Origin: an uncultured Carboxylicivirga sp.
Lineage (GTDB): Bacteria; Bacteroidota; Bacteroidia; Bacteroidales; Marinilabiliaceae
Assembly (NCBI GenBank): GCA_947503525.1
Contig: CANNEA010000002.1
Coordinates: forward strand, 372,001-436,000
DNA length: 64,000 bases
Direction of reading: 5' to 3'
The first letter of the stretch is position 1, and every line of letters begins with the position of its first letter. Position numbers and translations under genes: made by a program. The notes under the pieces were generated by a model that was not told the DNA's origin, ran no database searches, and worked only from the letters and a program-made list of their open reading frames with translations. Shown here in pieces: positions 4,138 through 18,054 of this stretch.

Positions 4138-4970
4138 TAGAACTTACCTGTTTTATATTTACTCGAAACTTTAAATCCAATAGAACCTACACCATCAAAT
4201 TCTATATCGCTAAATACCAAATTTAATGTAAACGTATCAAAACCACGTTTACCTTCAATCAATACTTCGTTGGCAAATAAACCTTTACTCGTTTGACTAA
4301 AATTAGTATACAAAATATTGACAGAAGAATTAGAACCAAAATCCTTGATATAGGACCTTGATATTTTAAATACTTCCGGCAAAATACTGAATTCATGCAT
4401 CATTAAGTCATCAAATTGATCTCGTCTACTTATACGTGCGTAACGACCATCTTTAATTGACTTAAAGGTATAAACCTGATCACCAATACCATGCTTATAC
4501 TTTTTTAATGAAGAGTTGGATATAACATCTATTGGATAGGAATATAACTCATTAAGAATAATAGACTGAACAGTATTGAAATCCATATCTAACATAAACT
4601 TTTTCCAAAGAATATTGTAATCTCCAGTATTATATTCACGCTTAATACGATCAAGTATTTCTACTTTATCCTTCGACAACTTTATTCGAAAGGCCTCTAT
4701 TCCTTTTAGTACAGAAACAATAATAAAACTATCCTTAACTAAATAAAGATTTCCGCGAAACGATTCACTTTTTCCATTTAGATCAAATTCAGCTTTAAAC
4801 TTCTTTAGAAACAAGGTACTACAATCTGAATAGTTTGATTCAATTTCTTTTATCAGGCGATTATCACTAATATTCTTTAGTTCTCCATCATTCTTATAGA
4901 ACTCCTTACCAGACTTACACGAGGTGCAGAATAGTATTAAAGACAAGAAAGCTATAATCAAATATTTCAC
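4137..4970 (-). CDS. DUF4292-family lipoprotein
   Basis: A 277-residue lipoprotein with a signal peptide ending in the lipobox-like FCTSC (lipidated Cys near residue 18). The rest resembles the Bacteroidota DUF4292 family, whose beta-rich fold recalls LolA/LolB-type outer-membrane lipoprotein handling; that functional link is inference. It overlaps neighbours by one base at each end, between a TPR lipoprotein and an EnvC-like protein. This suggests a shared role in envelope or outer-membrane maintenance. Confidence 0.8.
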   Translation of the reverse strand: MKYLIIAFLSLILFCTSCKSGKEFYKNDGELKNISDNRLIKEIESNYSDCSTLFLKKFKAEFDLNGKSESFRGNLYLVKDSFIIVSVLKGIEAFRIKLSKDKVEILDRIKREYNTGDYNILWKKFMLDMDFNTVQSIILNELYSYPIDVISNSSLKKYKHGIGDQVYTFKSIKDGRYARISRRDQFDDLMMHEFSILPEVFKISRSYIKDFGSNSSVNILYTNFSQTSKGLFANEVLIEGKRGFDTFTLNLVFSDIEFDGVGSIGFKVSSKYKTGKF

Positions 4971-6715
4971 TACTCTATATACGATTTAGTTTGAATCTTT
5001 TGTTTAAGAGTTTCGCTCTCATTTCCCATAGACTCAGATAATTTCCATTGCTCAACAGCTTTTTCAACATCTCCATTTTTGAAAAGAATATCGCCATAAT
5101 GTTCCACAACAACATCACTGTCTTTACCACCATTATCGATAGCCCTCTCCATTATATATTTAGCCTCAAAATAGCGTTCTCTTTTAAATAATACCCAGGC
5201 ATACGTATCCAGATAAGTAGCATTACCTGGCTCCATTTCAATACACTTACTACTCATCCTTTCAGCTCTATCTAAATCCTTATTTTCAAGTGTTAAATAG
5301 TAACTATAATTATTAAGTACAACTATATTTAGTTCATCCAATAAAAGCGATTCGTCATAAGCTTTAAAAGCCGCATCTGGATTTTCAAGAGCATAATAAA
5401 CATCACCCTGAGTCGCTAAAAATTGTGCTTTTAATGCCATGTTTTCACCGACATGATTAATACCGGTTTCTAGTAGATTTAAAGCATCCCTATTTTGTTC
5501 AAGTTGCAGAGCAGCAGACGCACCTAATAAATAGAAAAAAGCATTCTTTTTAAATTTATCTATAGCGATGATTGAGTTATCGTAAACTCCTTTAAAATCC
5601 TGTTTATCTATTAATAAGAGTAGATATTCCTGCCAAATTAATTCATTACTATCTTCAATATTTAGAGCATTTTGGTATGATTTAATAGCCAAATTGTTAC
5701 GCTTAGTGGCCTTATAATAATTTCCTAAATAAATATGAGCATTAGCTTCAAATGGATGTGTATCTATTAAAATTTTGAAGAAATCCTCCAAATAGGTTTG
5801 ATCTTTAACGATTCCTTGCCCATCCATTAATAATGGTAACAGACGTTGAAACTTGACCTCAAAGGGCGTAGCTTTATTTTCCAAACCTAATTGGTAGTTT
5901 TTTACAAACGAAGCAGTGTCCTTTTGGGACAAAGCCAAATTTCCCAGACTAAAAAATGCCATTGCATTATTTTCATCCTTCTCCAAAACTTTATTATAAT
6001 AAGTTTTAGCATTAACAGGATCTTTCAAATACATGTAGTAATCAGCAATATAACCGTAATAACGTGGTTCTTCCGGATACTTTGCCGTTAACTTTTGCAA
6101 TTCTTTTAAGGCATTCTTATTCTGACCAACTTCTAAAAAGATCTTTTCCTTTTCTAGAACTACAACTTCATTAAGTCCAATCTTCTTTTCAAGTTTATCA
6201 TAAACACTAACTGCTTTATCAAACTCACCATTCTTTTGATATACCTGCGCTAAACCATACAAATATTCATCGTTATCAGGATATTGATTAACAATCTTTT
6301 CATAAATACTAATCGCCTGTACACCTAATTTATTTTGCTGATATAACTGAGCCAGCATTAAATTATACCAAATATTTGAAGGTTCAAGCTGAATAGCTCT
6401 TTCCAGTAATCCCTGTGCTTTAACAACCTCATTTCCGGAAACAAAAATATTGGCGAGCTCATACATAGAAGCACTACTTGTCGGATCAATCTTTAAACAC
6501 TCACCAAGATACATCGCTGACTTTTCGATGTTACCTTTCATCTTCTCTCTACCAGCCTCATAAAAGAAGTAATCAAACTTTCGTTTCTCTACATCAGAAA
6601 GTTGAACTTTTCTAATTGTTTGGGCATTATCCTGTGCAACCTGAACCTTCGTAGTAGTCTTACATGAAAATGTAAAACCAATGATCAAAATAAAACCTAA
6701 TTTATATAATTTCAT
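4970..6715 (-). CDS. tetratricopeptide-repeat lipoprotein
   Basis: A 581-residue protein with a signal peptide ending FTFSC (lipobox), then at least ten TPR-like helix pairs from about residue 45 to the end, visible as recurring A-x-x-x-Y/L...P patterns. TPR lipoproteins scaffold envelope complexes; no enzymatic motif is visible. It lies 6 bp after dut and overlaps the DUF4292 gene by one base. The dut-TPR-DUF4292-EnvC order is probably a conserved Bacteroidota operon (from memory, unchecked). Confidence 0.85.
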   Translation of the reverse strand: MKLYKLGFILIIGFTFSCKTTTKVQVAQDNAQTIRKVQLSDVEKRKFDYFFYEAGREKMKGNIEKSAMYLGECLKIDPTSSASMYELANIFVSGNEVVKAQGLLERAIQLEPSNIWYNLMLAQLYQQNKLGVQAISIYEKIVNQYPDNDEYLYGLAQVYQKNGEFDKAVSVYDKLEKKIGLNEVVVLEKEKIFLEVGQNKNALKELQKLTAKYPEEPRYYGYIADYYMYLKDPVNAKTYYNKVLEKDENNAMAFFSLGNLALSQKDTASFVKNYQLGLENKATPFEVKFQRLLPLLMDGQGIVKDQTYLEDFFKILIDTHPFEANAHIYLGNYYKATKRNNLAIKSYQNALNIEDSNELIWQEYLLLLIDKQDFKGVYDNSIIAIDKFKKNAFFYLLGASAALQLEQNRDALNLLETGINHVGENMALKAQFLATQGDVYYALENPDAAFKAYDESLLLDELNIVVLNNYSYYLTLENKDLDRAERMSSKCIEMEPGNATYLDTYAWVLFKRERYFEAKYIMERAIDNGGKDSDVVVEHYGDILFKNGDVEKAVEQWKLSESMGNESETLKQKIQTKSYIE

Positions 6716-15112: not shown

Positions 15113-16309
15113 TTAATAGTTGAGAGTTCTACCGGTAATGGCAATAAATATATCCAGTTCCCGAAGTTTATCCTGTATTTTAATCAGTTCAGAAATCTTG
15201 ATTAAACCAATTTTATAACTATTCTCCCTACCTTTATATTCTTCGTTAATCGTTTCAAAATTAAAGTAGTTTAATACACTCTCATCGGAATAGCGAATAT
15301 ATATTTCTATTGCTCTATCCTTATTATAAGTAAAACCTCCTGAATAATTTAGCTTTTTATATTCGTACGAATAATTGTGAGCCAATGCGGTAATATCGGA
15401 AAGAACCGCTGAACCTGTTGGATGGGCACCGGCGCCTTTGCCAAACATAAATTGTTTATCGTAGGCTTTACCTTTAATTACTACACCGTTAAATTCATCT
15501 TCTACGCTATAAATGTACTTGTCTTTACCTACAAATCGAGGAAGTACAAATAAGGTAATATTGTTGTTTTCTAGACGTTCAACCTGTGCTACCAGTTTAA
15601 TTTTGAATCCTTTTTCTCTGGCATAATTAATATCAAAATCGGAAATATTACTTATACCATAAGTCAGAACATCATTAGGTTGGACAACTGTTCCAAAACT
15701 ATGCAGGGTAAGAATTATAAGTTTGAATAAAGAATCATATCCTTCCACATCAAAAGATGGATCACTTTCAGCAAAGCCCAAATCTTGAGCATCTTTTAAT
15801 GCTGTATCGTAGGACTGATTATGATCGAAAATTTTGGAAAGAATATAATTTGATGAACCATTTAGAATTCCGGTTACCGAGAGTAATAGATCATTATCGT
15901 AGTACTCTTCAAGATTTCTGATGATTGGTATGCTGCCACAAGCAGAAGCTTCGTATAATAAAGAAACATTATTTTCTTTTTGTAGTTGAAGCATTTCAGC
16001 CATATTTTCAGCTAGCATTTTTTTATTTGCCGACACCACTTTCTTCCCTTTCTGTAAGGCCTTCTTAACAATTTTATAGGCTTCATCGGCATTATCAATT
16101 AATTCAACTACCGTGTTTATATCAGGATCGTCAAGAATATCATCTGCATTGTAACAGAATGAATCTTCCGGTAAGGATCTTTGCTTTTTATTTTTGACAC
16201 AAATTTTAGAGATTTCTGCATTAAAAGCTGGACTCGTTTTTAATACTTCATATAAGCCTTGGCCAACAACTCCAAAGCCGAAAAGACCAATGTTTAGTTT
16301 TTGTTTCAT
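15113..16309 (-). CDS. hom: homoserine dehydrogenase
   Basis: A 398-residue monofunctional enzyme that reduces aspartate semialdehyde to homoserine, the branch point to threonine and methionine. It has the N-terminal NAD(P) motif GLFGFGVVGQG, the catalytic region SANKKMLAE, and LNGSSNYILSKI...AESDPSFDVEGYD; GKGAGAHPTGSAVLSD is also conserved. The C-terminus has only a short ACT-like segment and no aspartokinase domain. It lies 192 bp downstream of metY on the same strand, so homoserine supply and homocysteine formation are genetically linked here. Confidence 0.95.
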   Translation of the reverse strand: MKQKLNIGLFGFGVVGQGLYEVLKTSPAFNAEISKICVKNKKQRSLPEDSFCYNADDILDDPDINTVVELIDNADEAYKIVKKALQKGKKVVSANKKMLAENMAEMLQLQKENNVSLLYEASACGSIPIIRNLEEYYDNDLLLSVTGILNGSSNYILSKIFDHNQSYDTALKDAQDLGFAESDPSFDVEGYDSLFKLIILTLHSFGTVVQPNDVLTYGISNISDFDINYAREKGFKIKLVAQVERLENNNITLFVLPRFVGKDKYIYSVEDEFNGVVIKGKAYDKQFMFGKGAGAHPTGSAVLSDITALAHNYSYEYKKLNYSGGFTYNKDRAIEIYIRYSDESVLNYFNFETINEEYKGRENSYKIGLIKISELIKIQDKLRELDIFIAITGRTLNY

Positions 16310-16501: not shown

Positions 16502-17809
<1,308 letters not shown>

Positions 17810-17830
17810 TTATGGTTAATGTTTTATATC

Positions 17831-17858
17831 AAAAAGCCGCCGTTGCGTAACGCATCGG
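17831..17858 (-). terminator. attenuator terminator of metY leader
   Basis: On the minus strand, CCG-A-TGCG-TTA-CGCA-A-CGG forms a hairpin (17858-17840), followed by CGGC and TTTTT (17835-17831), 33 bp before the metY start codon. The 5' half, CGATGCGTT (17857-17849), can instead pair over 9 bp (one G-T) with AACGCATTG (17902-17894) just after the leader ORF. This gives mutually exclusive terminator and antiterminator structures. Confidence 0.75.
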
Positions 17859-17909
17859 TCTGTTTAATATATGTCTTGTGTGATTTTCAGATACAATGCG
17901 TTGTGACAA

Positions 17910-18014
17910 CTAGCTTGTCATCATCATACACATCATCATGGTACGTGAAGAGATTATTAGCGATGTTTCATCACTAATATCTAAAGGACTTATATGAAAA
18001 CTATATTTCTTCAT
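17910..18014 (-). CDS. methionine/cysteine-rich leader peptide of metY attenuator
   Basis: A 34-codon ORF starting ATG-AAG-AAA and ending with seven consecutive sulfur amino acid codons, MMMCMMM, then Thr-Ser-TAG. Its last codons lie at 17910-17939. A ribosome stalled on scarce Met-tRNA there would leave AACGCATTG (17894-17902) free to form the antiterminator; a ribosome reaching the stop would cover that segment and let the terminator form. A 6-bp hairpin, TGACAA/TTGTCA, encloses the stop codon (17904-17920). No SAM riboswitch is visible upstream of metY. Function is inferred from architecture. Confidence 0.8.
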   Translation of the reverse strand: MKKYSFHISPLDISDETSLIISSRTMMMCMMMTS

Positions 18015-18023
18015 TTGTTAAAG

Positions 18024-18054
18024 CAAATAAAGACATTTTGGTATTAATATCAAA
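18024..18054 (-). promoter_or_regulatory. promoter of the metY leader
   Basis: On the minus strand, TTTG (18054-18051) is followed after 19 nt by TTTATTTG (18031-18024). This matches the Bacteroidota -33 TTTG / -7 TAnnTTTG pair except for one base of the -7 element. Transcription would begin only a few bases before the leader ATG at 18014. Confidence 0.6.

Follow-up and report, generated by a model that had tools for sequence, protein, structure and literature searches.

Predicted methionine-codon attenuation upstream of metY in an uncultured Carboxylicivirga sp., with related Met/Cys-run leaders in Bacteroidota

Methionine genes are best known for control by repressors, T-boxes, and SAM riboswitches, of which SAM-I senses SAM directly, without a leader peptide. 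Ribosome-mediated attenuators are known from the trp, his, thr, ilv, and leu leaders. The metY locus described here lies in a stretch of 64,000 nucleotides from an uncultured Carboxylicivirga sp. (contig CANNEA010000002.1, positions 372,001 to 436,000), hereafter the window. Similar to the classical attenuators, it possesses a leader ORF enriched in codons for the product amino acid, hairpins that exclude one another, and predicted control by ribosome position. It differs from them in the amino acid (Met), the gene (metY), the phylum (Bacteroidota), a start codon near the presumed transcription start, and a family without a canonical terminator. SAM-I (RF00162) is present upstream of many Bacteroidota metY genes and was not found at metY of the window. 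Bacteroid-trp RNA (RF01692) is taken here to be a Trp attenuator. Poly-cysteine leader ORFs of Actinobacteria are reportedly, going by its title, the subject of Canestrari et al. 2020.

The preliminary description of this locus regarded a Met-codon attenuator as unusual, and this assessment stands, with one putative precedent in the available text of PMC8079986, the metL leader before metNIQ of Streptomyces lividans. The two loci share a proposed Met-dependent leader peptide, a leaderless transcript, and the lack of a typical terminator; metL differs in its peptide (MSTTSDRTPATEATTTPGARCMCRRMCAF, with few Met and as many Cys) and in its transporter operon, and the same text gives no evidence of an RNA switch (PMC8079986). 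In Actinobacteria, poly-Cys leader ORFs occur upstream of cys operons and cbs, with Rho proposed to act, and this 2005 paper, in its accessible part, found no conserved RNA structure at methionine operons (PMC1262725). With Cys runs near the stop codon and without clear terminators, they resemble the poly-Cys leaders of Bacteroidota metY genes; they differ, as far as that part of the paper goes, in that they are not at metY, include no methionine case, and have no adjacent SAM riboswitch (PMC1262725). The available sections of PMC9723704 mention 'strong clues' that amino acid operons of F. psychrophilum are preceded by leader-peptide attenuators, and the supplement of that paper may already list the version of the leader that we found in another class. 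Short ORFs in 5' UTRs are described for B. thetaiotaomicron (PMC7366714, partial text). Bacteroid-trp RNA is, similar to the present element, a Bacteroidota cis-regulatory candidate (PMC2864571, partial text); it differs in that it gave no match at gathering score at the window or family loci. In the literature covered by full-text search, judged by titles and abstracts and with subscription papers mostly outside it, we recognised no Met-run attenuator at metY and no leader/SAM-riboswitch tandem in Bacteroidota, and found no experimental report of a Met leader at metY. A Met-codon attenuator with comparative support would extend the range of amino acids sensed through leader peptides to methionine.

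The window harbours both the 34-codon minus-strand ORF with its Met-rich end and, just upstream, the Bacteroidota-type promoter, as had been described (Table 1). The box TTTATTTG has one mismatch to TAnnTTTG and ends 9 nt from the leader ATG, and a TTTG ending 6-10 nt before the leader ATG was read off the aligned strings of 14/14 congeners. In a flavobacterium, the -7 box TAnnTTTG is located at -12 to -5 (PMC9723704, partial text); transcription in the window would therefore start close to the leader ATG, a few nucleotides away. A full promoter box within 40 nt upstream was detected by script in 27/37 Met-type and 16/51 Cys-type leaders, so the promoter-near-start feature is not general. The presumed regulated gene, whose ATG is at 17797, 33 nt from the T5 run, encodes a protein matching TIGR01326 (O-acetylhomoserine aminocarboxypropyltransferase/cysteine synthase) with 688.3 bits at a cut-off of 495.1. 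The next gene, 192 bp after metY and on the same strand, encodes homoserine dehydrogenase and is a possible second gene of the metY unit. The stretch before the metY start (17800-17822, ACATTAACCATAAAAACTAAATA) is almost invariant within the genus; by eye, 9/14 congeners carry a GGTTAA able to pair with its TTAACC.

Table 1. Features of the metY leader locus and of the aspartate kinase locus with a SAM-I riboswitch; positions are those of the window unless a contig is named
Feature	Position	Strand	Basis and remarks
Bacteroidota-type promoter	18024..18054	-	TTTG 18054-18051, 19-nt spacer, TTTATTTG 18031-18024; sequence
Leader ORF, 34 codons	17910..18014	-	peptide MKKYSFHISPLDISDETSLIISSRTMMMCMMMTS-stop, ending MMMCMMMTS; read from sequence
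Segment 1, Met-Met-Cys codons AUGAUGUGU, can pair with segment 2	17928..17936	-	lowest-energy fold of 17940-17820, pair counts
Hairpin over stop codon, GACAA/UUGUC	17905..17919	-	pair counts over 32 sequences
Segment 2, AACGCAUUGUAUCUG, alternative pairing with segment 1 or 3	17888..17902	-	folding, alignment
Segment 3, CAGACCGAUGCGUU, alternative pairing with segment 2 or 4	17849..17862	-	pair counts, refolding simulation
Segment 4, CGCAACGG, closing short 3:4 hairpin	17840..17847	-	pair counts
T5 run, putative terminator tail, not conserved	17831..17835	-	four bases after 3:4 stem
metY, O-acetylhomoserine/O-acetylserine sulfhydrylase, presumed regulated gene	16502..17797	-	TIGR01326
Homoserine dehydrogenase gene	15113..16309	-	NF004976 (PRK06349), 329.6 bits
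Aspartate kinase gene and SAM-I riboswitch, L259 (G000:C2)	4175-5593 and 5766-5862	same strand	gene named from its sequence

The Met-run leader is present in 14/14 genomes of the genus, the window included, and was recognised in 11/18 other family genomes with metY at E <= 1e-150. Two of these 11 (L023 and L029) fell below the automatic score and were accepted from the RNA-segment alignment, as was L066. No leader was recognised in 7/18 of these genomes (G014, G019, G020, G023, G024, G028, and G033). Named records with near-identical MetY have identical leaders, and the cultured Carboxylicivirga mesophila JCM 18290 (locus L051) carries this leader. Over the 33-34 codons of the 14 congeners, the leader frame contains no in-frame stop, versus 102 and 30 in the two alternative frames, and the differences before the Met run number 241, 217, and 374 at codon positions 1, 2, and 3 (congener pairs of equal length, at most 45% different). 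The N-terminal part of the leader is variable, and the Met run and the RNA segments are kept; the Cys codon of the run is kept in 13/14 congeners. Peptide ends in the family differ yet are Met-rich (MMMCMMMTR, TMMCMMMTM, TMMYMMMTR, DMMCCMMMLL, DMMCRMMMTI, RRMYMVM), and the divergent ones, such as GMMDMMCMMTK, MGMMWNMMMAQ, TGMMMGRMSMA, and MMMGMMCSMMMSC, keep Met and differ by whole codons. As in trp-type attenuators, the leader ORF thus carries a run of codons for the regulated amino acid (MMMCMMM) in a conserved frame, and stands out from the controls given below. Non-conservation of the ORF or stems in close relatives, named in the preliminary description as evidence against its reading, was not seen: the frame is kept in 14/14 congeners, and the helices score above their slid versions.

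In a quick FastTree of MetY, which took in the 125 proteins long enough out of 222, 32 of the 33 rows labelled Met without SAM were found on one branch (support 98), together with six leaderless rows; the 33rd is the doubtful locus L092. The conservation is therefore that of one lineage. The covariance model R1 gave one significant match in its own genome, the metY leader itself (next best E = 0.87). With stricter filters, six matches with E <= 0.01 were obtained in 393 genomes of the order: three from this family (own genome included), L044 before a metY-like gene, and L045 and L046, which look like chance.

The pairing segments named earlier are present, AACGCATTG at 17902-17894 and CGATGCGTT at 17857-17849. 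The 1:2 pairing of the Met/Cys codons with segment 2 and the stop-codon hairpin are additions to that first scheme, as are the nearness of the leader start codon to the presumed transcription start and the Cys/Met leaders found across the phylum, often next to SAM-I. When the window RNA is folded from the Met run onward, AUGAUGUGU pairs with ACGCAUUGU of segment 2 around the stop-codon hairpin, and the 3:4 hairpin forms as well. Folding without the Met run pairs segment 2 with segment 3, and folding without segment 2 forms the 3:4 hairpin. Across 32 aligned leaders, paired cells amount to 85.3% for the 2:3 helix, 77.6% for 1:2 with the stop-codon hairpin, and 63.1% for the 3:4 hairpin, versus 20-53%, 19-63%, and 26-36%, respectively, in six slid versions of each. 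The stop-codon hairpin alone reaches 78.5%, with both-side changes at 3/5 pairs.

Cells with both-side changes exceed all 500 shuffles for each of the three structures, and the covariation score is reached by 0, 23, and 5 of 500 shuffles (2:3, 1:2 with stop-codon hairpin, and 3:4). The number of pairs with a both-side change is not above the shuffles, 341, 305, and 152 of 500 of which reach it in the same order. Slid versions gave 26 and 18 double changes versus 14 in the true 1:2 helix, and 15 versus 16 in 2:3; several 1:2 pairs are broken in about half of the 32 sequences. The Met run and the paired segments, whose covariation the preliminary description proposed to check, are kept in relatives; double changes exceed the shuffles when counted by cells, and not when counted by pairs.

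The response of the fold to the ribosome was simulated with partition functions, placing the ribosome edge 12 nt beyond the point where the first Met codon (stalled) or the stop codon begins. Averaged over 32 leaders, the probability that segment 3 pairs upstream was 0.75 for a ribosome stalled in the run, 0.29 for one at the stop codon, and 0.23 for free RNA. The stalled-minus-stop difference of 0.46 compares with 0.04 when the sequence after the stop codon was shuffled (highest of 20 sets 0.12). The exclusive 1:2, 2:3, and 3:4 helices of a trp-type device were computationally found to be set by ribosome position, with 10/32 sequences fitting poorly: five (L006, L021, L023, L029, and L059) already favour 2:3 as free RNA (0.92-1.00), and five others (L010, L012, L054, L056, and L066) hardly form it on stalling (0.01-0.15). 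The stalling and antiterminator logic first put forward is supported in its conserved Met-run leader frame and antiterminator-like 2:3 helix, both kept in relatives and above the shuffled controls, and is not supported, as stated, in its terminator.

We consider it quite probable, from comparative and folding evidence, that metY is controlled by a ribosome-mediated attenuator sensing charged methionyl-tRNA. In the proposed mechanism, a very short 5' end would start the 33-34-codon leader, whose last codons are the Met run (MMMCMMM). With ample Met-tRNA, the ribosome would finish and leave, the Met codons would pair with segment 2 (1:2), stacked on the stop-codon hairpin, and segment 3 would pair with segment 4, keeping metY expression low. 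With scarce Met-tRNA, the ribosome would stall in the run and hold segment 1, segment 2 would pair with segment 3, and metY, perhaps with the homoserine dehydrogenase gene, would be expressed. The conserved coding frame, the conservation of the Met run, the alternative helices, and the response to ribosome position support this computationally; leader translation, the methionine response, and the output step are what we infer.

As output, premature termination, either intrinsic or Rho-assisted, would be preferred, and a translational effect is also possible. The hairpin and T5 described 33 bp before metY exist as elements and do not amount to a canonical terminator. The stem CCG-A-UGCG/CGCA-A-CGG ends at 17840 and is followed by the four bases CGGC before the T5 run. 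A consensus terminator scan found none in the window, and a similar scan found one in 1/32 family leaders (L066; shuffled 0.8-2.5%). A trp-type 3:4 intrinsic terminator with a direct U-run was accordingly absent from the window and, but for that one leader in 32, from the family, and we therefore infer termination. Premature termination is our first choice because terminators are found in relatives. Of 12 Met/Cys leaders of other groups, one (L124) is from Bacteroidales and 11 are from another class (families f135 and f142, which we would guess to be flavobacteria). A terminator no more than 110 nt downstream of the leader stop was detected in 8 of the 12 by strict criteria and in 9 with longer stems and loops allowed, with 4.6% in shuffled sequences each time. 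The remaining Cys leaders have one in 1 or 2 of 44.

In these leaders, the terminator 5' arm can pair with GGGCUU, or with an equivalent, at the stop codon before the 3' arm is made. Upstream pairing of this 5' arm (n=9; L236, L246, and L257 of the 12 were left out, as no terminator passed the scan) was 0.69 with the ribosome stalled and 0.20 with it at the stop codon; shuffling of the upstream part gave 0.47, and at most 0.57 in any of 20 sets. This model, with the 3' arm not yet made, was chosen after full equilibrium folding failed: with the complete terminator no switch was obtained, and the terminator wins in 9/9 loci of the other-class set.

A variant of the main explanation keeps the Met-tRNA sensor and replaces intrinsic termination by Rho access to an untranslated stretch, by RNA stability, or by metY translation. 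It deserves attention, while falling well short of probable. In its favour are the 31/32 leaders without a canonical terminator, the GGUUAA...UUAACC noted by eye between the 3:4 hairpin and the metY start in 9/14 congeners, and the Actinobacteria poly-Cys leaders, which in the accessible text lack clear terminators and for which Rho was proposed (PMC1262725). Against it, the 3:4 hairpin ends about 35-45 nt before the metY ATG, so the metY start is not covered; relatives of the other class have strong terminators; and about one third of the 32 sequences have, by eye, a U-run within about a dozen bases.

The predicted device is not an isolated case. For each metY upstream, the best short ORF was scored by the number of Met and Cys among its final 12 codons. 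A score of at least 5 was reached in 88/222 distinct Bacteroidota metY upstreams, in 0/222 antisense strands, and upstream of 2/355 other genes in the same loci. Mainly Cys (ties included) are 51 of these leaders and mainly Met 37, among which L092 is of doubtful status, seemingly inside another gene, as are the mixed loci L148 and L172. For 97 loci (L162-L258), about 450 nt upstream were covered, and leaders or riboswitches further up were missed; L033, with the correct gene start, scores 1 and so lacks a leader, and a short pattern found no SAM-like core there. Judged by these sequences, the window element is one lineage's version of phylum-wide Cys/Met-run leaders at metY. The own genome contains six poly-Cys matches of TGYTGYTGYTGYTG, and no leader before a sulfur gene was found among the frames and neighbours inspected. 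In locus L084, a short ORF ending RHMLMQCMHSMH, one of the 2/355, lies 106 nt before an aspartate-kinase-like gene and may be a real Met leader on aspartate kinase. Within the final 16 codons of the 88 leaders, Arg is encoded by CGA in 28/75 cases, 26 of them directly before ATG (e.g. L025, L034, L065, L130, L133, and L145); in 72 metY genes, CGA accounts for 89/1001 Arg codons. The CGA-AUG motif in leader runs may reflect slow decoding or RNA pairing.

The Cys-run leaders at metY elsewhere in the phylum would also suit a run that senses a general shortage of both sulfur amino acids, Met and Cys, its single Cys codon serving as second input. The enzyme family is named for homocysteine and cysteine synthesis, and the Cys codon persists in 13/14 congeners. 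Nonetheless, we regard this reading as unlikely: the last 12 codons of L025, L027, L028, and L030 contain no Cys, L017 has Tyr, and the Cys codon of the genus also serves the 1:2 pairing, so its conservation could be explained by that.

An unrecognised SAM or methionine riboswitch with an incidental ORF could account for the conserved bases at the 2:3 internal loop in much of the set, and is nevertheless very improbable. At gathering score, Rfam gave no match on the window, with the SAM families, T-box, and Bacteroid-trp RF01692 included; up to E = 10 on 301 bases, it gave nine matches, all far below gathering (eight snoRNA families and one BsrG), with no T-box, no RF01692, and nothing relevant. 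L026, L034, L054, L056, and L071 have a continuous helix instead of the internal loop, and the frame, the Met codons, and the codon-sized changes are conserved. A novel aptamer in the 2:3 stem was set aside because the 2:3 internal loop is not kept in one subgroup. Even less credible is a chance Met run or a small functional protein without attenuation, for which the shortness of the ORF and the low complexity of repeated ATG speak, and against which stand the antisense and gene controls and the variable N-terminal part beside the retained Met run and RNA segments.

Leader type and SAM-I were compared using a nucleotide profile from 19 Rfam-matched SAM-I riboswitches. A SAM-I-like stretch was found upstream of metY in 43/51 Cys-type loci, leaving eight without it, in 5/37 Met-type loci, and in 60/134 loci without recognised leader. 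Rfam confirmed SAM-I in 17/20 tested leader loci, namely 16/19 mainly-Cys loci and the mixed L148 (more Met than Cys), missing L065, L074, and L096. It also confirmed SAM-I in 10/12 other tandem candidates, missing L216 and L254, which have two tandem Met/Cys leaders instead. L001, L124, and L259 were also scanned, with a SAM-I match in L259 only. Within the family of the window, SAM-I and the other Rfam 15 SAM families gave 0/19 loci at gathering score, 18 of the 19 with a Met leader. Twenty loci without a recognised leader of at least 5 Met/Cys gave two SAM-I matches, in L078 and L084, each at a distance of about 1.7 kb upstream of metY. A single SAM-I match was found in the own genome, upstream of the aspartate kinase gene on the same strand, not of metY; SAM-I matches were found in 23/60 relatives and in 12/14 genomes of the genus. 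In relatives of the other class, the riboswitch at metY comes after a Met/Cys leader, which in most cases has a terminator.

Tentatively, and with somewhat more doubt than confidence, we propose that Bacteroidota metY carries a phylum-wide, evolvable Cys/Met-run attenuator, often with SAM-I as two-input control. The lineage of the window would have lost the metY riboswitch and recoded the leader from Cys to Met, the leader taking over methionine sensing and the SAM riboswitch staying on aspartate kinase. That no riboswitch was found at metY in the clade of the window, where the run is Met, suggests a Cys sensor recoded to Met, as one event. We put the recoding forward as a hypothesis because only 2-3 independent contrasts between the Met run and the absence of the SAM riboswitch are available (sign test p = 1), because other-class Met/Cys-leader loci L243, L252, and L258 retain the riboswitch, and because the eight Cys-type loci lack it. 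If true, the change would be a visible case of a leader peptide switching its amino acid. Most surprising is the phylum-wide Cys/Met leader family itself, frequently paired with SAM riboswitches; with both leader and riboswitch, a single gene would be able to sense tRNA charging independently of SAM. Tandem Met/Cys-run leader ORFs before one metY were found in L216, L254, and L124, with a terminator after the first in all three. In L172 the order is reversed relative to the other-class loci, with a SAM riboswitch followed by an ORF ending FMDMRGMRM and then metY.
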